From Chryseobacterium sp. G0162 (lineage in GTDB: Bacteria; Bacteroidota; Bacteroidia; Flavobacteriales; Weeksellaceae): DNA of 64,000 bases. The stretch covers positions 434,001-498,000 of the forward strand of contig NZ_CP033922.1 in the NCBI RefSeq assembly GCF_003815715.1, in the 5' to 3' direction. The notes under the pieces were generated by a model, which saw nothing but the letters and a program-made list of their open reading frames with translations, had not been told where the DNA came from and searched no databases. The position numbers and the translations under genes were made by a program. Shown here in pieces: positions 11,851 to 24,734 of the stretch. How positions within the stretch are numbered: the stretch's first letter is position 1; each line of letters starts with the position of its first letter.

Positions 11851-12145
11851 TTTGTTATCATTTTTAAATTAAAATTAGCCTATCATACAGGTGCTTTACT
11901 CAAAATTACTACTTTTTTATATTCAAAATCAAAAAGTCATTTTTTTCAACATTCTCATTAAACCTTAAAAAGCGAGAAACATTAAATTAATACATTGATT
12001 TGCAAAAACATAACAATTAAAATACATAAAAAAAGCATAAAACAAGTATTCTATAAAGAAGTCTATTCCGTCCTGATTTTGAACATTTTTAAAAGGTTTT
12101 TGGTAAGAATGCAGGTGCTAAAATGATGTAAATTTGCTATACTCA
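11851..12145. other. Divergent intergenic region
   Basis: AT-rich spacer between two divergent small genes. A TAnnTTTG match (TAAATTTG, 12129-12136) lies too close to the ATG at 12146 and has no TTG at the right distance, so no promoter is called. Confidence 0.4.
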
Positions 12146-12508
12146 ATGAAGAAGTCTCTTTACATATCAATTACTTTTATGCTTGTCCTGTTTTTTACAT
12201 TACTACTGGGATTCGCTCACCACAAAAAAAGTAATATTTCTGTTCATTCTTCAGAGAATCAAATAAGTTTTAAAGTATCTAATTCCGTTCAGCAGCATGA
12301 TCTTTTGTTCATCGCATCGATTGTTGAAAATGATTTTGATGTTGACAAAACTTTTTTTGATCTGCCTTTTATCCTTTTTGAAAAAGAAATGTTTTCATGG
12401 GGATCTCCCTTAAACTCTACTACGATAATGAGTTCTGAAACACAATGGGCACATCATTATCACCTTCCCAAATATCTTTTATTTCATAATCTAAAGATCA
12501 GAATATAA
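12146..12508 (+). CDS. Small membrane-anchored protein, unknown function
   Basis: 120 residues from ATG 12146 (MKKSLYISITFMLVLFF); the frame upstream begins only at a TTG. One N-terminal hydrophobic segment (residues 5-25) acts as a membrane anchor or uncleaved signal. The rest is exported and holds His clusters (AHHKK after the anchor, WAHHYHLPKYLLFH near the end). No family is recognised. It lies 117 bp upstream of hypA, so a role in metal handling is possible but speculative. Confidence 0.6.
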   Translation: MKKSLYISITFMLVLFFTLLLGFAHHKKSNISVHSSENQISFKVSNSVQQHDLLFIASIVENDFDVDKTFFDLPFILFEKEMFSWGSPLNSTTIMSSETQWAHHYHLPKYLLFHNLKIRI

Positions 12509-12625: not shown

Positions 12626-12979
12626 ATGCATGAATTGAGTATAGTGAAGGATATCTTTGACACTTTGCAAGAGCATTATCATGCTAAAGTAGAAGATATC
12701 CAACAGGTTCAGGTAACGGCAGGACTATTATCCAATGTGCAGCCTGTCCTGATTCAGAATGCGTTTGATGCATTCATTACCGACCATCCGTACTACCAGG
12801 AAATGGAACTTGAAGTGCGCGTCAACGATATTATAGCTCACTGTGACCGGTGCCACAAAGATTTTCCGGTCAGGTACCACAAATTTGTGTGCGACGACTG
12901 CGGAACTCCCTCTGCTCATATTGTTCAGGGAAACGAACTCTTTATTTCAAAAGTAATTTTTAAACAAAAAAATCATTAA
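12626..12979 (+). CDS. hypA: HypA-type nickel metallochaperone
   Basis: 117 residues. MHE at the N-terminus supplies the conserved Ni ligand His2, and C73, C76, C89, C92 (CDRC and CDDC) form the structural zinc site of HypA/HybF. HypA delivers Ni2+ with HypB to [NiFe]-hydrogenase, and in Helicobacter also to urease. hypB starts 1 bp after the stop. No hydrogenase subunit or other hyp gene (CDEF) is in the window; instead a UreE-like gene and an uptake system follow. This favours urease or another Ni enzyme as client, or general Ni trafficking. Confidence 0.92.
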   Translation: MHELSIVKDIFDTLQEHYHAKVEDIQQVQVTAGLLSNVQPVLIQNAFDAFITDHPYYQEMELEVRVNDIIAHCDRCHKDFPVRYHKFVCDDCGTPSAHIVQGNELFISKVIFKQKNH

Positions 12980-12980
12980 T

Positions 12981-13694
12981 ATGTCAACAGCTAATCCAAA
13001 AAGTCTAGGAAACCGCGTAGGATCGGTTCAATGTGATAATACCACTCTTCATTTATTAAAGGCTAATGATTTTGTAGCCAAAGCCATCAGAGACCGTCTG
13101 AAAGATGTCTGCGTTATCAATGTATGTTCCTCTCCGGGATCCGGGAAAACAACATTAATGCAGGAAACCGGAAAAAGACTGGCGCAGGATCTTAATATTT
13201 CAATTCTTGTAGGCGACCCGGAAACAGAGCGTGATGCGATCAGAATGCGTGAGGTAGGAATCAATGCCTTACAGATTGTAACGGGTGGCATGTGTCACAT
13301 TGAGGCTCAGATGATTTTGCAGGCACTGGATCACATCGATTTAGAAGGTGTTGATTTATTATTCATCGAAAACGTAGGAAATCTTCTTTGCCCATCAGCA
13401 TTTGACCTTGGAGAAGATTATCGTGTCACTCTTCTGGCTTCTACTGAAGGCGATGATAAACCTAAAAAGTACCCCCGTATGTTCTTAACCAGTGAACTGA
13501 TGCTTGTTTCTAAAGCAGACTTGCTTCCTTATGTTCCATTCTCTGTAGAAGCGGTAACAAAAGATGCCCATGAAGTAAACCCTAATCTTGAAGTAATGAC
13601 CATCAGCACACTCAACGGTGACGGAATTGAAGAATGGTGCAACTGGCTGAAGGAAAAAGTAAAACTGAAAAAAGAAAGCGCTAAAGAAGCTTAA
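12981..13694 (+). CDS. hypB: HypB-type nickel-insertion GTPase
   Basis: 237 residues of the SIMIBI GTPase class. Walker A SPGSGKTT at 51-58, switch DPETERDA (79-86), and the G4-like SKADLL. The dimer-interface metal site is conserved: C105-H106 (GGMCHIEA) and C137 (NLLCPS). The N-terminal high-affinity CxxCGC motif and the His-rich tract found in some HypB proteins are both missing, so this form should not store nickel. It provides GTP-driven Ni transfer with HypA. The UreE-like gene starts 1 bp downstream. Confidence 0.92.
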   Translation: MSTANPKSLGNRVGSVQCDNTTLHLLKANDFVAKAIRDRLKDVCVINVCSSPGSGKTTLMQETGKRLAQDLNISILVGDPETERDAIRMREVGINALQIVTGGMCHIEAQMILQALDHIDLEGVDLLFIENVGNLLCPSAFDLGEDYRVTLLASTEGDDKPKKYPRMFLTSELMLVSKADLLPYVPFSVEAVTKDAHEVNPNLEVMTISTLNGDGIEEWCNWLKEKVKLKKESAKEA

Positions 13695-13695
13695 T

Positions 13696-14172
13696 ATGAA
13701 TACAGTACAACCAATCGTAATTGATGAAATAAAAACAGGAATTGATCTGAACCATCAATGCTCTGACGTTCTGGAACTCGAATGGTTTGAAAACAAAAAG
13801 CAAAAACTAACCCGGACTACCAGATCCGGGCTTGTTTTGGAACTGAGATTAGGAAATAGCACGGAATGGCAGCAGGGAGACGGCTTATATCATAATGGGC
13901 AACTGATGGCAACGATTGAAATCAAACCCTGTCTTACCATAAGTTTTCCCGCAGAAAATGATGCCGAAGCTGCAGACTTCTGCTACTTTATCGGGAATCA
14001 GCATTTACCTGTATTCATGACCTCTAATCAACAGTTTGCAGTGCCTTATGATGGAAAACTTTATGAACAGCTGTCTTTCAGGTATAGTGGACGTATTGAG
14101 CTTACCGATGCCCAGCTTTTATCTCATCAATCCTTACGTTATCTGGCAAAAAATAGAATCTATGAAAATTAA
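13696..14172 (+). CDS. UreE-like nickel chaperone
   Basis: 158 residues. LVLELRLGNSTEWQQGDGLYHN (46-67) and FCYFIGNQHLPVFMT (95-109) match the two conserved parts of urease accessory protein UreE; H103 aligns with the conserved Ni-binding His of UreE. The His-rich C-terminal tail is absent. UreE stores and hands Ni2+ to the UreDFG-urease complex. Its place between hypB and a binding-protein lipoprotein gene (11-bp overlap) without any ure structural gene is unusual. Similarity is motif level, so a divergent nickel chaperone is the safest call. Confidence 0.75.
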   Translation: MNTVQPIVIDEIKTGIDLNHQCSDVLELEWFENKKQKLTRTTRSGLVLELRLGNSTEWQQGDGLYHNGQLMATIEIKPCLTISFPAENDAEAADFCYFIGNQHLPVFMTSNQQFAVPYDGKLYEQLSFRYSGRIELTDAQLLSHQSLRYLAKNRIYEN

Positions 14173-15175
14173 AAGTCTGTTTATTATAAGTTGTTCTGCT
14201 CTGCTTCTGGCATTGCAAAGCTGTAATAACCCGAAAAATTCCGGTACTAAAGAAAATTCAGCGAATGCGGAAGTATCTGCAACAGACAGCAGAGGTAAAA
14301 AGATCATCCTTCCTCATGAAGCGATGCGCGTTGTTGTTTTATACAATGCATTGGTGGATGATGTTTATATGCTTCAGGCAGGCGAAAAAATTGTAGGAAT
14401 CCCCCAACAGATCTACGAAATGGAAGATACTTACAGCTTCCTTTCCAAGCTTGATGACCGTATTAAAAATAAAAGCATTGCCACACCTACTTTTGGTGGC
14501 CAATCCAGTAATGCAGAAAGTATTGTAGGATTGAAGCCTGATTTGGTGCTCACCTTCAATACAGATGAGGATAATATCAATCAAATTGAAAACCTTGGAA
14601 TTCCGGTATTTACTTTTTCTTCTTTAAATGATGAAAAGATTCTTGATGAATTAAAAAATGTTGGGAAACTGCTTGGAAAACAGAAACGAGCTGAGGAAAT
14701 TACAGGATATGTTGCTGATGAAGTAAAAAAAATGAGAGCATCGCAAGCCACTTCTCCTAAAAAGATCTACTATGCGTGGTCAAAAGGACGTATCATGTCT
14801 ACTTCAGGAAAAGGAAGCCTGATTGATATGGCCATTACCCTTTCCGGAGCTCAGAATGCCTGTCCTGTTCCGGTAGAAGCCCCCAATATCAGTGCTGAAA
14901 CCATGTATAAGTGGAATCCTGATCTTATCATTCTGTGGAATTCAAAGTTATCGGATGTTTACAGCCTTAAGGAATTGGAAGCACTTCCTGCCGTTAAAAA
15001 TAAGCAGGTATTTGTAATGTCTCCATCGTTTCCGTACGACCCGCATACGGTGAAGTTTATGTTGTTTGCCAAACAGCTTCGTCATTGGTGTATGCCTGAA
15101 TATACACAGGAACAGCTGGATCAGGATGTAAAAAAAGCTTTCGAGATAATCTATGGCAAAAAAGGATTGATCTGA
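14162..15175 (+). CDS. ABC transporter substrate-binding lipoprotein (FecB/BtuF type, likely nickel or Ni-chelate)
   Basis: 337 residues from ATG 14162 (MKIKSLFIISCSALLLALQSC). The lipobox LQSC places the lipidated Cys at 21, followed by an N/K/S-rich linker. The body is a helical-backbone metal/siderophore binding domain: GRKKIILPHEAMRVVVL, ESIVGLKPDLVLTFN and the closing lobe SAETMYKWNPDLIILWN. It captures substrate in the periplasm for the permease that follows (TGATG overlap). Linkage to HypA/HypB/UreE-like genes suggests nickel or a nickel complex rather than iron. Confidence 0.88.
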   Translation: MKIKSLFIISCSALLLALQSCNNPKNSGTKENSANAEVSATDSRGKKIILPHEAMRVVVLYNALVDDVYMLQAGEKIVGIPQQIYEMEDTYSFLSKLDDRIKNKSIATPTFGGQSSNAESIVGLKPDLVLTFNTDEDNINQIENLGIPVFTFSSLNDEKILDELKNVGKLLGKQKRAEEITGYVADEVKKMRASQATSPKKIYYAWSKGRIMSTSGKGSLIDMAITLSGAQNACPVPVEAPNISAETMYKWNPDLIILWNSKLSDVYSLKELEALPAVKNKQVFVMSPSFPYDPHTVKFMLFAKQLRHWCMPEYTQEQLDQDVKKAFEIIYGKKGLI

Positions 15176-16185
15176 TGATAAAAAGCATTAAAACATCTTC
15201 CTTACTCATCCTGCTTCCTATACTTTTGGTGTTTGTTTCACTGGTTATAGGTTCCAGCCAGAATATTGGAATGGGAGAACTGTTTCATCATATCGCCCTG
15301 GAGTTTGGGATTTCCAAAGATGAAGCCGTTCTGCAGGGAAGTCTGCATACGATTTTATGGCAGGTTCGTCTACCACGCATCATCCTTACTTTTCTCGTAG
15401 GTGCTTCTCTGGCTTCTTCCGGAGGAGTTTTGCAGGCTGTTTTCAGAAATCCTATCGTTGACCCATTTACATTGGGAATTTCATCTGGTTCCGCATTTGG
15501 AGCGGCATTAGCCATGTTATTTCCCATAATGGCGGTTAATATTTCTGCTTTTATCTTCGGAGTTGTGGCAGTGGGTATCACTTATCTGGTTTCGTATGCC
15601 GGGGCCAAAACATCCATTGTCAGTATGGTTCTAGCCGGAATGATCGTATCGGGAGTATTTACAGCATTTCTTACCGTTTTACAATATCTGAGTGATCCTT
15701 ATAAATTACAGGCTATTGTACAATGGACCATGGGGAATCTGCATACTGCTTCATGGCAGAAAGTTCATACTGCTGTATTCCCAATTCTTATTGGTTTAAC
15801 CGTAATTGTTGTACTTCGATGGAAACTCAACCTTTTAGCCTTGGGAGATCATGAAGCCATGGCTGTTGGAGTCAATCCTACAGTGCTGAAACTGATTCTG
15901 ATGGCAGTAGCCACGATGATTACAGCATCATCTGTTGCCGCTGTTGGGGTCATCAGCCTGTTCGGATTAATCGTTCCTCATATCAGCAGAATGATTTTTG
16001 GTCCGAACAACAGCATTACCGTTTGGGCTAATATTAGTATTGGTGGTGCATTTTTATTATTGATCGATGATTTCTCACGTACTGTAATGCCTTTTGAAAT
16101 TCCGATCGGAGTATTTACCATGATTATCGGAGCCCCTATTTTCATCTATTTAATGCGTAAAAATGTCATAAACTGGAACTCATGA
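15175..16185 (+). CDS. FecCD/BtuC-type ABC transporter permease
   Basis: 336 residues, about ten membrane segments. The LPRIILTFLVGASLASSGGVLQAVFRNPIVDPFTLGISSG region is diagnostic of the FecCD family; the C-terminal VGVISLFGLIVPHISRMIFG is the coupling-helix region that meets the ATPase. Inner-membrane channel of a metal- or chelate-uptake ABC system. Start overlaps the upstream stop (TGATG) and the end overlaps the ATPase start (ATGA), so all three are translationally coupled. Confidence 0.93.
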   Translation: MIKSIKTSSLLILLPILLVFVSLVIGSSQNIGMGELFHHIALEFGISKDEAVLQGSLHTILWQVRLPRIILTFLVGASLASSGGVLQAVFRNPIVDPFTLGISSGSAFGAALAMLFPIMAVNISAFIFGVVAVGITYLVSYAGAKTSIVSMVLAGMIVSGVFTAFLTVLQYLSDPYKLQAIVQWTMGNLHTASWQKVHTAVFPILIGLTVIVVLRWKLNLLALGDHEAMAVGVNPTVLKLILMAVATMITASSVAAVGVISLFGLIVPHISRMIFGPNNSITVWANISIGGAFLLLIDDFSRTVMPFEIPIGVFTMIIGAPIFIYLMRKNVINWNS

Positions 16186-16952
16186 ACACTATGATTAGTA
16201 TAGAACAGCTTTCTTTTGATTATGGAAAAGATCAGGTGCTGAATAATGTTAATGCAAAATTTGCAAAAGGAAAACTGTCGGTTATTTTAGGAAGAAACGG
16301 AAGTGGTAAATCTACTTTGTTTAAGATTATTGCCGGGTTAGAAAAAAATTACAAAGGAAGCGTATGGATTGCCGATAAGGAACGCCGAAAAATAAAAATA
16401 GGGACATCTACTCCAGTTCGCATAGGGTTTTTAACCCAATTTCATCAGACTACATTTCCATTTAAAGTGTTTGATGTGGTCTTAACAGGTAGAGCTTCTT
16501 TTTCCAGGTTTTCACCCAAACAATCGGACCATCAGGAAGTAGAAGCCATTCTTCAAAAATTTAATTTAACCCACTTAAAAGATAAACCTTATACTTCTCT
16601 TTCCGGCGGCGAGCGCCAATTGGTACTGTTATGCCGGGTATTGGTTCAGAAGCCGGATATTTTGATGCTGGATGAACCTACCAACCATCTGGATCTTCAT
16701 TATCAGGTAGCTGTATTAGAAGTTATTCGTCAGTTAGTCCGTGAAGGAACTACCGTTTTATGTGTAATGCATGATCCTAATCTTGCTTTTCAGTTTGGCG
16801 ATGATTTTTTTGTCATGCGCCATCATGAACTGGTAGCTGTTAAGTCATTGGAAACAGATGAATTGAAACGGCTTCTTGAAGAGACATATCAGGTTCCTTT
16901 ACTTGCCCTGAATAATCAGGGAACTCCCATGTTTGCCCCACAACTAAAATAA
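16182..16952 (+). CDS. ABC transporter ATP-binding protein (FecE/BtuD type)
   Basis: 256 residues. Walker A GRNGSGKS near residue 37, signature LSGGERQ, Walker B ILMLDEP and H-loop VMHD. Energises the FecCD permease at the cytoplasmic face. ATG 16182 overlaps the permease stop; MISIEQLSF at the fourth codon is an alternative start. Member of the metal-uptake operon. Confidence 0.93.
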   Translation: MNTMISIEQLSFDYGKDQVLNNVNAKFAKGKLSVILGRNGSGKSTLFKIIAGLEKNYKGSVWIADKERRKIKIGTSTPVRIGFLTQFHQTTFPFKVFDVVLTGRASFSRFSPKQSDHQEVEAILQKFNLTHLKDKPYTSLSGGERQLVLLCRVLVQKPDILMLDEPTNHLDLHYQVAVLEVIRQLVREGTTVLCVMHDPNLAFQFGDDFFVMRHHELVAVKSLETDELKRLLEETYQVPLLALNNQGTPMFAPQLK

Positions 16953-16957
16953 AATAT

Positions 16958-17476
16958 ATGAAAAATCATGAAGAAATAACGATTTCGTTGGTACAGGATT
17001 ACCAGGTATTTGAAGTTCTTCCTTATGTCATGGAATTCAGACGTCAATTGTACCCTTTATTAGATCCCTTGATCGTCCCTAAAGATCTTGTCAATTTTGA
17101 ACAGAATTATTTACTCTCTCCTACCGGAGCTTTTTTACAAGCCCGAACCGCAACCGGAAAACTGATAGGTGTTATTGGTATGATGCCCTATGATTATCGT
17201 TTTCCTCATCTGGACATTGATGAAAAAACAACCGTAGAAGTGGCTAGATTATTCGTCAACCCGGAGTACCGAAGAGCAGGAATTGCTACCCAACTGTTTC
17301 AGGAACTGATTAAAACTGCACAACAGAAAAATATAAAACGATTATACCTGCATACCCATCCTTTTCTGCAGGGAGCGTATGATTATTGGCTCAAACAGGA
17401 TTTTAAACTTCTAAAATCATGTTATGAAGGTACCTACCCAACTCTTCACATGGAATTAATGATTACCGCAGAATAA
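16958..17476 (+). CDS. GNAT-family acetyltransferase within the metal operon
   Basis: 172 residues. The central TTVEVARLFVNPEYRRAGIATQLFQELI carries the acetyl-CoA loop (R-x-x-G-I-A), so GNAT fold is secure. It sits 5 bp after the ATPase and 29 bp before the TonB receptor, so it is part of the transcript. Its role is unclear: it might modify or release a metallophore, or act on an amine produced during metal stress. No metallophore synthase is in the window. Confidence 0.82.
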   Translation: MKNHEEITISLVQDYQVFEVLPYVMEFRRQLYPLLDPLIVPKDLVNFEQNYLLSPTGAFLQARTATGKLIGVIGMMPYDYRFPHLDIDEKTTVEVARLFVNPEYRRAGIATQLFQELIKTAQQKNIKRLYLHTHPFLQGAYDYWLKQDFKLLKSCYEGTYPTLHMELMITAE

Positions 17477-17505
17477 TAAATACTACAACAGCGTAGAAAG
17501 ATACA

Positions 17506-19941
17506 ATGAAGCACATCACTAAAAAAGTATTATACATCAATGGTATAATGCTCTTACTTCCTTTTGCCCTATCGGCACAGGAAACCCATCCTATTTTTGG
17601 AAAAATCCTGAATCAGGGAGGGAAAATAATTTCTAATGCCACGGTTTCCATCAACCAGGGAACCATGACCACAACGAGTAAAGACGGTAAATTTCAGTTT
17701 GAAACTCCGGTTCAATATCCCGCTCAATTAATGATTGATGCCCAAGGGTATTCCGGATCCAATATCACATTAGATTCCCTTTCTTATGATGATAAAAACG
17801 GAATTACCATTCGCCTGGTAGAAAATCAAACGGCTCTTCAGGAGGTTTTAATTACTGCCAGAAGAAACAATTCTTACCTTACCAATAATTTGGAATTGGG
17901 TGGAAAATTTTCGGGGAATTTAAAAGACCTTCCACAATCCGTTTCTATTGTCAGCAGTGAGTTTATGGAAGACAAACAAGCCTATACTACCCGCGATGTG
18001 GCTCAGGATTTGGCCGGGGTAACCACAGCCTCTTCTTATGATGATCTTATCATTCGTGGTTTTAAAAGCGGCTACGAAACCGGAATCCGACTTGTGAATG
18101 GACTCCGATCAGGATATAGTTACGGAAACAGTTACTATCGTTCTCCCTTAACTATCAATCTGGAAAGTGTTTCTGTTTTAAAAGGCCCTGGCGCCTCATT
18201 ATTCGGAGATGTGACTCCCGGAGGAACGATTAATATGGTGACTAAAAAGCCGTTGGATAAGCAAAAAGGTTCTATCAATTTCTCCGTTGGGAGTTTTCAG
18301 ACTATCCGTACCAGCATTGATTTGACAGGGCCATTGGATAAAGAAAAGAAAATCCTGTACCGTCTGAATGCAGGGTATGAAGACAGCAAAACCTTTCGAA
18401 ATGTCAATCAGCAGAAAAACTTTATGATTGCTCCTTCCTTTACTTTTAAACCATTTGACGGAACTCAGGTAGATATTGATCTGGTATATGACCAGTTTCA
18501 TGGATATCTTGACCGCGGAATGGGTTTGAGAAACAATGATTTTTATGCCCTGGACCGTTCCTTTACTTTAAGTCAGCCATCGGATTTTTATAATACTAAA
18601 ACGTTGTCATTCAGTGCAAGACTAAGCCAGCGTCTTACGCATAACCTCTCATTGAATGCAAGCTATATGAAGTCTATCTATCAGGAAGATGTGAATGAGC
18701 ACCGTACCCTGAACAGCTATGCGGACGCTCCCAATAATACGATCATGAATATGCGTTTTTTTGACCGTCATGGAAAAGATTATACGGATAACTCTGTAGT
18801 GTATCTGAAATGGGATCTTACCGGACATAAAATCGAAAATCATATTGTAACAGGAGTAGATTATGCCCAATATGAAGGAGACAGCAATAATCAGCAAAGA
18901 GAGGCAAGGCAACAAAGAATAGATGGAAAAATAGTTCCGTTGACATTTGACCTTAACAATCCTACGTATACCACTCACGACCTTAGTAATTACGTATGGT
19001 TATCTCAGGGAAATTATCCCTTTTTAAGTCCTTATAAAACAACCGGAATCTATGTACAGGATCAGATTTCATTTGCAGACAGATTAAAACTTATTGTCGG
19101 ACTGCGTCATGAGCATTATTATTCTGAAACTGTAAGTGGTAAAGACCGTTTTAGTGCTACTCAAAATGCTTGGTTGCCTCGTATTGGATTAACATACCAG
19201 ATCAATGATCAGATCAATTATTTTGCAAGTTATTCACAGGGATTTGCTCCCGTTGGCGCCAACTTTATCCAGAACTATCAGGATTATGGTGCTGATAAAC
19301 CATTCACCGCTGAACATAGCTTCCAGGTGGAAACAGGTCTTAAAACCGGATTTTTTAAGAACCAATTACAAATGGACTTATCTCTTTTCCAGATTGAGCG
19401 CAAAAATATGCTGATTGCAACAGGAGAAATCAGTACAACAGGATTTCCTGTCTACAGACAATCAGGAGAAGCCGTATCTAAAGGAGTGGAATTGGATATC
19501 CGTGGACAGCTGACAAAGGAGTTTCAGATCATGGCGAATTATACTTATAATGATACAGAAGTAAAATCTTCCTCCATTGCCTCTGAAGTAGGACAAGCCT
19601 TACCGGGAGCTCCTAAAAACATGGCCAGCATGTGGTTGAAATATGTTTTCTCAACCTCTGCCTTAAAAGGGCTTGGTTTCGGAGCCGGAGTGTATTATGT
19701 AGACACCAGACGTATGGATAACAGCATTGGAAAAGACAGCAATGGAACTGCCCTTTGGGGAGAATGGCCGTCTTACACCACTGTAAATGCAGCCGTATAT
19801 TATCATATCGGAAAAATGAAAATGGCAGTGAATGTCAACAATATTTTCGATACCTATTATTTTCTTGGTGGTTTTGATTATACACGAGCCTTTCCGGGAG
19901 CTCCAAGAAATGTAACGGTTTCTGTGGGGTATTCTTTTTAA
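17506..19941 (+). CDS. TonB-dependent outer-membrane receptor (FhuA-like), metal/metallophore uptake
   Basis: 811 residues. Signal peptide to about residue 24 (LPFALSAQ), then a carboxypeptidase-regulatory-like domain (about 28-110), a TonB-box-like ALQEVLITARR, the plug (DLPQSVSIVSSEFMEDKQ through LFGDVTPGGTINMVTKKP) and a siderophore-receptor barrel ending in the aromatic SVGYSF. It imports a chelate across the outer membrane and feeds the binding lipoprotein. Final gene of the operon, followed by a strong terminator. Nickel specificity is inferred from the HypA/B and UreE-like neighbours. Confidence 0.93.
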   Translation: MKHITKKVLYINGIMLLLPFALSAQETHPIFGKILNQGGKIISNATVSINQGTMTTTSKDGKFQFETPVQYPAQLMIDAQGYSGSNITLDSLSYDDKNGITIRLVENQTALQEVLITARRNNSYLTNNLELGGKFSGNLKDLPQSVSIVSSEFMEDKQAYTTRDVAQDLAGVTTASSYDDLIIRGFKSGYETGIRLVNGLRSGYSYGNSYYRSPLTINLESVSVLKGPGASLFGDVTPGGTINMVTKKPLDKQKGSINFSVGSFQTIRTSIDLTGPLDKEKKILYRLNAGYEDSKTFRNVNQQKNFMIAPSFTFKPFDGTQVDIDLVYDQFHGYLDRGMGLRNNDFYALDRSFTLSQPSDFYNTKTLSFSARLSQRLTHNLSLNASYMKSIYQEDVNEHRTLNSYADAPNNTIMNMRFFDRHGKDYTDNSVVYLKWDLTGHKIENHIVTGVDYAQYEGDSNNQQREARQQRIDGKIVPLTFDLNNPTYTTHDLSNYVWLSQGNYPFLSPYKTTGIYVQDQISFADRLKLIVGLRHEHYYSETVSGKDRFSATQNAWLPRIGLTYQINDQINYFASYSQGFAPVGANFIQNYQDYGADKPFTAEHSFQVETGLKTGFFKNQLQMDLSLFQIERKNMLIATGEISTTGFPVYRQSGEAVSKGVELDIRGQLTKEFQIMANYTYNDTEVKSSSIASEVGQALPGAPKNMASMWLKYVFSTSALKGLGFGAGVYYVDTRRMDNSIGKDSNGTALWGEWPSYTTVNAAVYYHIGKMKMAVNVNNIFDTYYFLGGFDYTRAFPGAPRNVTVSVGYSF

Positions 19942-19960: not shown

Positions 19961-19996
19961 AAAGCCTGGGCTGTTTTTTACAGTCCGGGCTTTTTA
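19961..19996 (+). terminator. Terminator of the nickel operon
   Basis: Stem AAAGCCTGGGCTG (19961-19973) with CAGTCCGGGCTTT (19981-19993), two wobble pairs, followed by a T run. Confidence 0.88.
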
Positions 19997-20177: not shown

Positions 20178-21566
20178 TTATTTCCAGCCTCCGCCTAAAG
20201 CTGCGTAAAGATTAACCAATGCCTGAAGCTGTTGCAACTTATCTGTAACAGCATTTTGTCTTGCACTTAAAAGGCTTTGCTCTGAAGTAAGAACATCTGT
20301 ATAATTGGTTGCACTTGTATATTTCAATAATTCTTTTGTAAAATATACTGCCTTTTCAAGGTTGGCAATCTGCTCCTTTCTGGAGATTGCTTTTTCATCC
20401 ACCATCTGATACTGATAAAGAGCATTCGAAACTTCCTGCCCTGCTGTTAATAACACTTTCCTGTAATTGTATTCTGAAGCTTCATAATTAGCCTGAGCAA
20501 CTTTTAATTTCTGTTTATTCAGTCCGTTATTAAAAATGGGCTGAGTTAATCCACCTACAATATTGGCAAAGAAAGCACCGGCATTGAAAAATGATTTTAG
20601 CTGTGTCGCATATAACCCGGACTGTCCTGTTATGGTCAATGCAGGATAAAAAGCTGTTCTTGCCACATTAACCTGTTCGAAATTGCTTCTCAACTGCAGC
20701 TCAGCCTCCTTCACATCAGGTCTGTTAGCCAATAATTGAGCAGGAACTCCAATTGAGAGTTCACTATAAACCTGTTCACTAAACAATGAATCTCTCTTTA
20801 TAGATCCGGGTGCTCTTCCCAGTAGTAAACAAAGTGTATTTTCTGCCTGACGAATATTATTTTTAATATCAGGTACTGTAGATTTTACCGCATAATAATT
20901 AGCTGCACTTTGTACTACAGCCGCTCCTGTTACTACATTACTGTTTTTCAGAATCTTCATTGTTTCCGTGTCTTTGGAATATACCTCCAGAGACTGTTGT
21001 ACAATGTTCAACTGTTCATCATAAGCCAGCAACTGATAATATGTGGCTGCTATGTTAGCTACAAGCTGTGTCTGCACTGCCTGCCGGTAAGCTTCACTGC
21101 CAAGATAAGCAGCATACATAGATCTTTTTGTACTTCTCAACTTACCCCAAACATCTACCTGCCAGGATGAAAGCGCATACAGCTGATACACCTGGGAAGC
21201 AGAAGCCTGAGCACTGGCCGGATCATAAGCTCCGGCAGAAGCATTCCCTGACAAAGATGGCAAAAATGCCTGTTTACTTTGTACAAAATTCGCTTCTGCC
21301 GCTTTAAGATTAGCAGCTGCTGTTTTCAGATCCAGATTATTAGAAATCCCCTCAGTAATAAGCTCTTGCAACAAAGGATCTTTAAAAATTTCTTTCCATG
21401 ACAGTGTTGCCATATTGTTGTTGGAATCTGTTACTGCATCTCCGTATAGACCATCCGGAACAACCTGATTATTAGCATAGGGCTTAGTAACATCACAACT
21501 AAAAAGCATCACTGATAAAAATGCAGCCTGCACAAAATGGTTATATTGTTTTGACCAATGTATCAT
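20178..21566 (-). CDS. Outer-membrane efflux lipoprotein (NodT/OprM family)
   Basis: 462 residues. Lipoprotein signal ending LFSC (Cys about 24), then two outer-membrane-efflux repeats rich in heptads (ITEGISNNLDLKTAAANLKAAEANFVQ; LANRPDVKEAELQLRSNFEQVNVARTAFYPALTITG). Forms the trimeric TolC-like exit duct. Last gene of the RND operon, 3 bp after the pump gene. Confidence 0.93.
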   Translation of the reverse strand: MIHWSKQYNHFVQAAFLSVMLFSCDVTKPYANNQVVPDGLYGDAVTDSNNNMATLSWKEIFKDPLLQELITEGISNNLDLKTAAANLKAAEANFVQSKQAFLPSLSGNASAGAYDPASAQASASQVYQLYALSSWQVDVWGKLRSTKRSMYAAYLGSEAYRQAVQTQLVANIAATYYQLLAYDEQLNIVQQSLEVYSKDTETMKILKNSNVVTGAAVVQSAANYYAVKSTVPDIKNNIRQAENTLCLLLGRAPGSIKRDSLFSEQVYSELSIGVPAQLLANRPDVKEAELQLRSNFEQVNVARTAFYPALTITGQSGLYATQLKSFFNAGAFFANIVGGLTQPIFNNGLNKQKLKVAQANYEASEYNYRKVLLTAGQEVSNALYQYQMVDEKAISRKEQIANLEKAVYFTKELLKYTSATNYTDVLTSEQSLLSARQNAVTDKLQQLQALVNLYAALGGGWK

Positions 21567-21569
21567 ACT

Positions 21570-24500
21570 TTACGATAGATTATTTTTATTTTCAACAATC
21601 AGCTCATCGTTTTCATCATATTTATTCGTTCCTGCTTTCTCCTGCAATCCCTGGAAAATCACATACAATCCGGGAATTACAAATATTCCCAACAAGGTTC
21701 CGAACAGCATTCCGCCAATGGAACCTATTCCTATGGACTTGTTTCCATTGGCTCCCACTCCTGTTGAAAACATCAAAGGCATTAATCCAAAAATAAAAGC
21801 CAGTGAAGTCATTAAAATAGGCCGGATTCTTATTTTTGCTCCTGCCAGCGCACTATCAAACAAACTCATTCCTTCATGTCTTTTTTCCAGTGAAAGTTCT
21901 ACCATTAAAATGGCATTTTTAGCCAAAAGCCCGATCAACATAATCATACTGATCTGCACATAAATATTATTATCAATTCCAAATAATTTGGCAAATACAA
22001 AAATTCCGCTTAATCCTACAGGTAAAGAAAGAATAACAGCCAACGGCAGAATATAACTTTCATATAGCGCACTTAAAAGAAGGTAAACAAAGCAAAGGCT
22101 TAACAGAAATATAACAACGGCCTGTGATCCTGAACTTTGCTCTTCCTTACTAATTCCACTGTATTCAAAACTATATCCCGGAGGGAGACTTTGCTCAGCC
22201 ACCTGATTGATGGCTTCCATAGCCTGCCCGGTGCTGTAGCCGTTATTGGGTGAACCACTCACGGAAATAGCATTGTACATATTAAACCTTGATACAGAAG
22301 AAGGCCCGTATACTTTTTTCATGGTGATGTACTCAGAAATAGGGCTCATCGTTCCGCTTTTCGTTCTTATTTTGATATTGTTCATCTGTTCAACGGTTCC
22401 CCTGTAAGGATTATCCGCCTGAAGAATGATCTGATACTGTTGCCCGAATTCGGTGAAATTGCTGATATAGGAACTTCCGTAGTATACATTCATAAGATTC
22501 AGAATGTCTGATGGCTGTATTCCATTATCTTCACACTTGGCTACATTCACATCCACTTCATACTGCGGAAAATTCGGATTAAATGCTGTAGCAGCATATT
22601 GAATTTCACTTCTTTTATTAAGTTCTGCCAGAAATTTTTGAGCCACTCCAAAAAAATCATTGATGCTATGTCCACCACGGTCTTCAATCTGGAAAGTAAA
22701 TCCACCACTTGTTCCAAAACCACTTATCGTAGGCTGCTGCATAAAATTGATGGAAGCTCCCTGTATATGTTTTGTTTTCTCAGTCAACTGCTGTATGACA
22801 TCTTTATCCGTAACTCCAGGACGCTCACTCCAGGGTGTAAGCCTTAGAATTAGCATTCCATAAGAACTACCGCTTCCGCCCAGCTGATTTTGTCCTAAAG
22901 TAGTCATCGATGCCTGGATCTGAGGAATGGTATGAGCAATACGGTCTATCTGACTATTAATTCCCTGCACTCGTTCTTTAGTAGCAGCTGCCGGAAGGGT
23001 AACATTCACAAACACAGTTCCCATATCCTCCGAAGGAACAAAACTGGAAGCGACACTTTTAATCGTAAAGTAAAAAAGACCTCCAAAACATATCACGAGT
23101 CCAATAGTCAGCCATTTTCTTCTGATCAGAAAACTGACCGCTTTCATGTACTTATTGATCAGCTTATCATAATTTGAATTAAAACCAGTCTTAGCTTTTT
23201 GCAGGAAGCTTTTCTTTTCTTCTTTTTCATTGTGTTTGGGTGGACGAAGAAACATAGCCGCCAAAGCAGGACTTAAAGTAAGTGCATTTACGGCTGAAAT
23301 CATAATCGCTACTGCCAGGGTAATTCCAAATTGTTTATAGAAAACCCCTGCCGATCCTCCAAGGAAAGTTACTGGCAAAAATACGGATGCCATTACCAAG
23401 GTAATGGAAACAATAGCCGGAGCAATTTCTCCCATAGCATCAATTGCCGCTTTACGTGGAGAAGTATAGCCATGCTCAAGTTTACTATGAACCGCTTCTA
23501 CAACTACCACAGCATCGTCCACCACAATCCCAATTGCCAAAACAAGGGCAAACAGAGTAAGTAGATTAAGACTATATCCGAATAAATACAGAAAAAAGAA
23601 TGTTCCTATAATAGATACCGGAACCGATACACCATGGATAATTGTAGAGCGTACATCCTGTAAAAAAATAAGAATCACAAGAAATACCAATAAAAAACAT
23701 TCTACCAGCGTATGCAGTACCTTGGAAATACTTTCACTAAGGAAATTATTAATATTTACAAGTTCTATTGTTTTGATTCCTGACGGAAAACTCTTAGCGG
23801 CATCTGCCATTACCTTCTGAGCCCCTATAATAACCTCCTGTGCATTGGAGCCCGGAGTCTGGCTGATAGCAATAGCAACAGCAGGTTTACCATTAATGGC
23901 AGTAGCACTGGTATAAGTTTGTGTACCCAAATCAATACGTGCAATATCTTTCAGATAAAGATACTGTCCGTTTCCTATAGATTTAACGATAACATTCTGA
24001 AACTGTTCTAAAGAAGACAAAGTCCCTGAATAGGTAATATCATATTGAAATGCCTGCGCCAGGTTATCTCCTATCTTACCCGGTGCAGCATTAAAGTTCT
24101 GAGCATTCAAGGCAGTTGTTACATCAGAAGGAACCAATCCGTAAGCGGCCATCTTATCCGGCTGTAACCAGATCCGCATAGCATACGTCATGGCTCCACC
24201 AAAAACATTGGCTCCTGCTACACCATTGGCTCTCTGTAATTGGGGAACGAGGTTAATTGCCGCATAATTCTGCAGAAATTTCTGATCGTATTGTGCCCTT
24301 TCACTGAACAGTCCTAATATCAACACATTACTGCTCTGTTGTTTTCTAACCGTAACTCCAGCCTGTGTTACTGCCTGAGGCAATTTGGAAAGAATGGTAC
24401 TGATCCTGTTCTGCACATCCACCGCAGCCTGGTTAGGATCCACCCCTACCGCAAAATAAACACTGATGCTGGCAGAACCTGTGTTACTGGCAGAAGAAGT

Positions 24501-24734
24501 CATATAGGTCATTCCCTCTACCCCATTAATCTGCTGTTCAAGTGGAAAAACCACACTATTAATAAGTGTAGTAGTATTGGCTCCGGGGTAAGATGCCGAA
24601 ACCTGGATGGTAGGAGGTGCAATATTGGGATATTGAGCTACCGGTAAACCACTGATCCCTAAAATCCCTAATACAACGATGATTACAGAAATCACCGTAC
24701 TGAGTACCGGTCTTCGTATAAATAATTTCAGCAT
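21570..24734 (-). CDS. RND multidrug efflux pump, HAE1 family (AcrB-like)
   Basis: 1054 residues, full length. Begins LFIRRPVLSTVISVIIVVLGI (TM1), has two large periplasmic loops, and twelve membrane helices. The TM4 proton-relay Asp pair is present (GIVVDDAVVVVEAV). It exports drugs, dyes or bile-like compounds using the proton gradient, with the upstream adaptor and downstream outer-membrane lipoprotein. The order adaptor-pump-channel is the usual Bacteroidota layout. Confidence 0.95.
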   Translation of the reverse strand: MLKLFIRRPVLSTVISVIIVVLGILGISGLPVAQYPNIAPPTIQVSASYPGANTTTLINSVVFPLEQQINGVEGMTYMTSSASNTGSASISVYFAVGVDPNQAAVDVQNRISTILSKLPQAVTQAGVTVRKQQSSNVLILGLFSERAQYDQKFLQNYAAINLVPQLQRANGVAGANVFGGAMTYAMRIWLQPDKMAAYGLVPSDVTTALNAQNFNAAPGKIGDNLAQAFQYDITYSGTLSSLEQFQNVIVKSIGNGQYLYLKDIARIDLGTQTYTSATAINGKPAVAIAISQTPGSNAQEVIIGAQKVMADAAKSFPSGIKTIELVNINNFLSESISKVLHTLVECFLLVFLVILIFLQDVRSTIIHGVSVPVSIIGTFFFLYLFGYSLNLLTLFALVLAIGIVVDDAVVVVEAVHSKLEHGYTSPRKAAIDAMGEIAPAIVSITLVMASVFLPVTFLGGSAGVFYKQFGITLAVAIMISAVNALTLSPALAAMFLRPPKHNEKEEKKSFLQKAKTGFNSNYDKLINKYMKAVSFLIRRKWLTIGLVICFGGLFYFTIKSVASSFVPSEDMGTVFVNVTLPAAATKERVQGINSQIDRIAHTIPQIQASMTTLGQNQLGGSGSSYGMLILRLTPWSERPGVTDKDVIQQLTEKTKHIQGASINFMQQPTISGFGTSGGFTFQIEDRGGHSINDFFGVAQKFLAELNKRSEIQYAATAFNPNFPQYEVDVNVAKCEDNGIQPSDILNLMNVYYGSSYISNFTEFGQQYQIILQADNPYRGTVEQMNNIKIRTKSGTMSPISEYITMKKVYGPSSVSRFNMYNAISVSGSPNNGYSTGQAMEAINQVAEQSLPPGYSFEYSGISKEEQSSGSQAVVIFLLSLCFVYLLLSALYESYILPLAVILSLPVGLSGIFVFAKLFGIDNNIYVQISMIMLIGLLAKNAILMVELSLEKRHEGMSLFDSALAGAKIRIRPILMTSLAFIFGLMPLMFSTGVGANGNKSIGIGSIGGMLFGTLLGIFVIPGLYVIFQGLQEKAGTNKYDENDELIVENKNNLS

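Follow-up and report, generated by a model that had tools for sequence, protein, structure and literature searches.

The window analysed here is a 64,000-nucleotide stretch of Chryseobacterium sp. G0162 (contig NZ_CP033922.1, positions 434,001 to 498,000), part of a 5.28-Mb single-contig genome. It carries a compact block of eight genes in which the nickel chaperones HypA and HypB and a UreE-like protein are joined to a TonB-dependent uptake system. Our check of open reading frames (ORFs) in the window found all eight genes on the + strand, where a previous sequence-only reading had placed them, in the order hypA, hypB, ureE-like, binding lipoprotein, FecCD permease, ATPase, GNAT and TonB receptor. 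Successive intergenic gaps are +1, +1, -11, -1, -4, +5 and +29 bp, and the last gene is followed by an intrinsic terminator-like hairpin with a 14-pair stem (19961..19993, + strand). The hairpin scan gave 7 terminator-like sites vs 6.1 expected in shuffles, the one at the end of the block having the longest stem. The short gaps or overlaps and the terminator described in the sequence-only reading are therefore present, as are the positions, strand and motifs it gave, and the arrangement suggests that the eight genes form one transcript.

The first gene, hypA (12626..12979), encodes a nickel metallochaperone recognized by PF01155 (86.4 bits, cut-off 28.9), with His2 in the MHE start as the nickel ligand and Cys 73, 76, 89 and 92 as the zinc site. 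Its score against TIGR00100, the equivalog model of hydrogenase maturation HypA, stays below the cut-off (54.9 vs 88.1 bits). The product of hypB (12981..13694) is a G3E GTPase according to both TIGR00073 (237.5 bits, cut-off 121.2) and the Pfam cobW/HypB/UreG model (78.8 bits, cut-off 20.7). It has a Walker A motif, and C105-H106 and C137 correspond to the C-H and C nickel ligands of the G domain. All residues previously named for the two proteins are present, and model cut-offs are passed, for HypA that of its Pfam family.

The third gene (13696..14172) encodes a protein whose sequence scores lie under the Pfam cut-offs of both UreE domains (UreE_C 18.2 vs 23 bits; UreE_N 16.5 vs 26.9) and under that of the best NCBIfam UreE model (75.8 bits vs 171), and for this reason a fold test was needed. 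The AlphaFold2 model, calculated from a 14-row alignment with ordinary UreE rows among them, has a mean predicted local distance difference test score of 87.2. All 23 PDB matches of this model at E ≤ 0.001 are UreE chains, with Helicobacter pylori UreE (3l9z) as the best one (E 3.7e-10), which bears out the UreE fold supposed in the sequence-only reading. His103 is located within the GNQH motif and is kept in 13/13 close homologues. We refer to this protein as the second UreE, of the HypB-linked lineage.

The uptake half begins with a binding lipoprotein of the Peripla_BP_2 type (14162..15175; PF01497, 103.7 bits, cut-off 27.5), followed by a FecCD-class permease (15175..16185; PF01032, 277.3 bits, cut-off 26.5) and an ATP-binding cassette (ABC) ATPase of the ABC_tran family (16182..16952; PF00005, 113.1 bits, cut-off 25). 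A GNAT acetyltransferase (16958..17476; PF00583, 56.7 bits, cut-off 20.7) precedes the TonB-dependent receptor of siderophore-receptor type (17506..19941; TIGR01783, 265.8 bits, cut-off 223.5; Pfam barrel 201, cut-off 27). Pfam searches detected no urease subunit, no ureF, ureG or ureD, no hypD, hypE or hypF and no exporter in the operon itself.

The client enzyme and the other ure genes are missing from the window, as stated in the sequence-only reading, but not from the genome. A full urease cluster (L002:9588-17609) is situated near 3.99 Mb on the same contig that holds the operon near 0.45 Mb, so that the client merely lies outside the window. Its order is ureA, ureB, ureC, a gene for an outer-membrane-like protein, ureE, ureF, ureG, ureD, a membrane protein and a urea transporter. 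NiFe hydrogenase gave no match in this genome.

To follow the operon in relatives, a family sample of 296 genomes was used, 149 of them from the same genus. The UreE-like protein was found at E below 1e-40 in 13 genomes, 12 of the genus (own genome included) and one, G121, of another genus; the next match is at 4e-23. Urease is encoded in 92 of the 296 genomes, all 13 carriers among them. The hypergeometric P of this co-occurrence is 1.4e-7 in the family and 8e-5 within the genus (12 carriers, 71 urease-positive, 149 genomes), although these values overstate the association because the genomes are kin. The gene-order search proposed in the sequence-only reading revealed the eight genes complete and in the same order in every carrier (12 fetched loci and the window). 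Plasmid-borne copies at near identity were not found. In G121 the operon is located directly upstream of urease on the same strand, the block ending 1.0 kb before a short ORF that precedes ureA. There a single DUF2490 gene (L036:13035-13817) separates the receptor gene from the urease transcript. HypA itself exceeds the Pfam cut-off in 29 genomes, comprised of the 13 carriers, 6 genomes with hypAB beside urease, and 10 others. Loci were fetched from all six of the second group, two of which (G013 and G052) also show matches to the binding protein, permease, ATPase and receptor at that place, and from three of the ten others, where HypB is more distant (about 41% identical).

A further connection with urease is found upstream of hypA, where the sequence-only reading had mentioned neither a promoter-proximal site nor a short ORF. 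The site is a 15-base candidate operator, GATTTTGAACATTTT (12075..12089, + strand), common to the operon and the urease cluster: the genome contains exactly two copies, one before each, and none of the reversed control. Throughout the 296 genomes there are 123 sites, 74 before urease, 10 before the operon and 39 elsewhere, the last number being close to the 34 obtained with the reversed control. For the 74 urease-side sites the spacing from the ureC match is nearly constant (1280-1386 bp); the count excludes two weak second urease places, in G121 (1.6e-4) and G169 (5.8e-4). The site precedes urease in 69 of the 71 urease-positive genomes of the genus and in 74/92 overall. On the operon side, 10 of the 12 carriers compared have the exact site, G238 has it with one mismatch and G121 with two; the thirteenth carrier, G072, was left out since its contig is too short. 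The urease site of G121 has three mismatches, and T2 and A15 occur at both sites of this genome. Because the motif was chosen from the two sites of the own genome, only other genomes count as a test, and these are themselves mutually related.

The position of the site is regular with respect to putative promoters. Candidate -7 box TAAATTTG (12129..12136, + strand) starts 54 bases after the site start before the operon, and box TACTTTTA follows it by 53 bases before urease; we take TANNTTTG to be the pattern of this Bacteroidota-type element. In both promoters of the own genome the site is just upstream of a TTTG box, with a similar layout in relatives, and such a position would suit activator binding. 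An AraC-TPR gene about 4 kb upstream of urease was considered as the regulator and is not supported, as the two stretches without it (L197 and L198) belong to genomes that retain the exact site before urease. It was observed in 8 of 10 urease upstream stretches, where other tested neighbours are equally syntenic.

The short ORF (12146..12508, + strand) is the first gene of the putative transcript and encodes 120 amino acids with a hydrophobic N terminus, ending in PKYLLFHNLKIRI. An ORF occupies this position in 12/12 testable operon loci and a look-alike precedes 22/22 urease clusters; among the relatives compared, third codon positions vary most. The look-alike of the own genome (L002:9123-9488) also has a hydrophobic start, and the two translations end in PKYLLFHNLKI and PRYILYHSLQI. 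Neither of them has a Pfam family above the cut-off, and they align at 27%. Assignment of the two ORFs to one family was abandoned, as neither recovered the other when used to search the own genome; apart from each query itself, the only match was one at chance level for the second ORF (E 0.32). Any kinship between them, which is not shown by sequence search, would rest on position, hydrophobic start and similar last residues.

Several neighbouring genes were recorded along with these features. Two genes on the - strand of the window (20178-24734) converge on the end of the operon, one for a NodT-type efflux subunit of the outer membrane, the other large and apparently RND-pump-like, judged from its translation. 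In the urease cluster, the outer-membrane-like protein gene between ureC and ureE (L002:12256-12906) has no Pfam match; it is also present in G121 and in 20/20 other fetched urease loci (L048-L067), and its product is possibly a urea or nickel pore. The 233-aa membrane protein of the same cluster (L002:15827-16528), equally without a significant Pfam match, contains HTASGPDH, which resembles the nickel-permease signature H-x4-DH, and is possibly a second nickel entry.

Distribution beyond the family was approximated with a scan by HypB alignment, which gave 141 relatives. Counts are based on the best 80 of these and are thus biased to near relatives; 7 of the 8 Chryseobacterium loci, together with L147, L153 and L175, overlap the 296-genome sample and are not new evidence. 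The full module, defined as hypB followed on its strand by UreE, binding protein, permease, ATPase, GNAT and receptor, is present in 45 loci. In 35 of them ureC is present in the same locus, with block and ureC falling inside a single stretch of 11-21 kb, and the 10 without it belong to Myroides (2) and Chryseobacterium (8), in which operon and urease are at separate places. Chryseobacterium ureilyticum DSM 18017 (L111) carries the full module. The remainder consists of loci with UreE after hypB, transporter genes and ureC (8), transporter genes and ureC without UreE after hypB (4), UreE and ureC (2), hypAB and ureC (3), and hypAB alone (18), which brings ureC to 52/80 loci overall. Since GNAT belongs to the definition of the module, its separate count matters: it was matched in 48/57 permease-containing loci, and the receptor likewise in 48/57. 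In many loci of Sphingobacterium and Myroides the module precedes urease; in further Sphingobacterium loci and in Pontibacter and Rufibacter it follows ureD. The eight-gene grouping spans Weeksellaceae, Sphingobacteriaceae, Flavobacteriaceae and Hymenobacteraceae. Two HypB-urease loci each are present in Rufibacter glacialis and Pontibacter chinhatensis (L155 and L161; L158 and L163). In Myroides guanonis (L140), hypAB, UreE, permease, ATPase and GNAT precede urease, a binding-protein match follows ureD, and the receptor gave no match.

The same set bears on the idea that HypA and HypB serve a NiFe hydrogenase, the rest of the operon being a general nickel importer. A NiFe hydrogenase match accompanies a similar HypAB pair in 13 of the 80 loci, all among the 18 with hypAB alone, and the hypA-hypB pair is indeed what the operon shares with hydrogenase hyp clusters (HypB about 80% identical, 81% in Spirosoma, one of these loci). 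However, the operon differs from such clusters in having no hypD, hypE or hypF, none of the 13 operon-carrying genomes has a NiFe hydrogenase match, and UreE, adjacent to hypB in 55/80 loci, follows it in 0/13 hydrogenase loci. A function of HypAB as hydrogenase factors was rejected on the lack of a match to the enzyme in the operon genomes, and we give this explanation next to no weight.

Relationships of the UreE proteins were examined on a tree of 100 rows (98 different), limited to UreE of 110-230 aa from the 80-locus set. One branch parts all 57 UreE encoded directly after hypB from the 43 of urease clusters, with support of 99/91; 99% of the 200 bootstrap trees contain this branch, and an average of 32.6 changes was required when labels were shuffled. 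The program issued a long-branch warning and the root is unplaced, so that either group may be nested within the other. The GNxH motif is present in 57/57 of the hypB-linked lineage. A second protein of this kind could also be accommodated in a nickel storage or detoxification relay, with HypAB and the second UreE holding nickel instead of feeding urease. In other bacteria UreE and HypB are able to bind and store nickel, and the own urease cluster already has UreE and UreG, both of which speak for such a function. The urease linkage, the common site and the lack of an exporter in the operon argue against it. A metal-binding His-rich C-terminal tail (at least 3 His in the last 25 residues), which not every UreE has, is likewise missing from all 57 hypB-linked proteins, although this is a weak point, as only 1/43 of the urease-cluster UreE has one, some of these rows are cut short and the measure hardly separates the two groups. 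On balance, we find storage or detoxification improbable.

Taken together, we consider it likely that the block is an import and relay operon that supplies urease with nickel, probably as a chelate. Its genetic link to a nickel enzyme consists in urease adjoining the operon in relatives and in the upstream site common to both. The TonB receptor would carry a nickel species through the outer membrane, and the lipoprotein, permease and ATPase would bring it into the cytoplasm. There HypA, HypB and the second UreE may receive nickel and hand it to UreE, UreG, UreF and UreD of the distant urease cluster, and a regulator reading GATTTTGAACATTTT upstream of both promoters may co-control urease and nickel supply. 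We infer the direction of the hand-off, the regulator and the role of GNAT as parts of this scheme. A chelate is the likely imported species because the nearest PDB relatives of the receptor, 3qlb and CntO (6i97), are siderophore and metallophore receptors. Import and intracellular hand-off of nickel, as proposed in the sequence-only reading, are backed by genomic context, and the specificity for nickel is putative.

A number of observations weigh against this interpretation. Urease-positive genomes of the genus mostly do without the operon (59/71), which makes it dispensable for urease as such. Outside the family, the best site before hypA or ureA in the 80-locus set mostly has close to as many mismatches as shuffled sequence has on average (about 4), and the site is consequently a local feature. 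Exceptions are 7/7 testable Chryseobacterium loci with the exact site (6/7 also in the 296 genomes) and three Sphingobacterium loci (L115, L117 and L122) with 2 mismatches before ureA. Five of the 80 loci have a hypAB pair but, within the stretch retrieved, no ureC and no hydrogenase, and GNAT has no clear role in the operon. As for the transported species, the best PDB matches of the lipoprotein are unnamed periplasmic binding proteins, followed by BtuF and by iron-complex and heme-binding chains. Weaker matches were obtained with two nickel-labelled entries, 4ino (E 3e-7), whose deposited description is nickel- or iron-binding protein, and 4ls3 (E 4e-7), and it is from them and from context that we infer nickel. 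With its score above the TIGR01783 cut-off, the receptor meets a siderophore model, and the permease, like the binding protein, resembles cobalamin (BtuC), heme or siderophore proteins. The transporter half might accordingly import a ferric siderophore, heme or cobalamin and be joined to hypAB-ureE by chance or for the sake of iron-linked regulation. Chance linkage would be expected to break, and the persistence of the eight genes together across four families, with ureC alongside in 35/80 loci and in G121, speaks against this explanation, which we hold to be unlikely.

Precedents for a nickel route to urease come from Helicobacter. Deletion of hypA or hypB in H. pylori lowers urease activity 40- or 200-fold, respectively, nickel restores it, and a HypA-UreE complex forms (PMC7055735). 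Nickel is carried there by NiuBDE, an ABC system, and by FrpB4, a TonB receptor (PMC5140060, PMC7840056). As far as these accounts extend, the set described here corresponds to that of H. pylori in the TonB receptor, the FecD/FecE-type ABC importer, the CeuE-type binding protein, HypAB and UreE, and differs in that HypAB of H. pylori also serve hydrogenase, of which the operon genomes have no match. The genes of the H. pylori nickel route are scattered, whereas their counterparts here are assembled in a single block that also includes a second UreE and GNAT. Given this precedent, the most economical interpretation is that one operon unites the same route. The combination of a TonB receptor with an ABC system is also known from Helicobacter mustelae NikH with CeuE/FecDE, the available account of which mentions no hypAB or ureE with these genes. 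With the standard urease cluster ureABC-EFGD, its likely client and the source of the UreE family, the operon shares UreE, but it lacks a urease subunit, ureF, ureG and ureD, and its UreE stands on the other side of the 99/91 branch.

No description of an operon with this gene combination appeared among the matches listed in open-access literature (with few subscription journals), and the statement of the sequence-only reading that none is known holds within this range. The parts and the idea are already known from Helicobacter, while packaging in one operon, the second UreE, GNAT and the shared site did not appear in the matches listed. Within the same literature, the matches listed included no assigned nickel route for urease-bearing Bacteroidota. 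A 2009 comparative study tabulates 30 Bacteroidetes genomes, 2 of them with urease, and its main text has zero occurrences of TonB, HypA and HypB (PMC2667541).

Tentatively, and with less confidence than for the import and relay function, many Bacteroidota could maintain two UreE lineages in their urease systems, one belonging to the urease cluster and the other linked with HypAB and a TonB-ABC importer. The latter might act as a dedicated adaptor to which the importer or HypA delivers nickel at the membrane, in a closed relay from outside the cell to urease, with GNAT making or opening the nickel ligand. The block presents a complete candidate route from the outer membrane to urease. With importer, HypAB and second UreE in one unit and a control site shared with urease, the idea that nickel is channelled directly can be put to the test, and the part that HypAB take in maturing urease, as described for Helicobacter, would be extended to organisms without a NiFe hydrogenase match.

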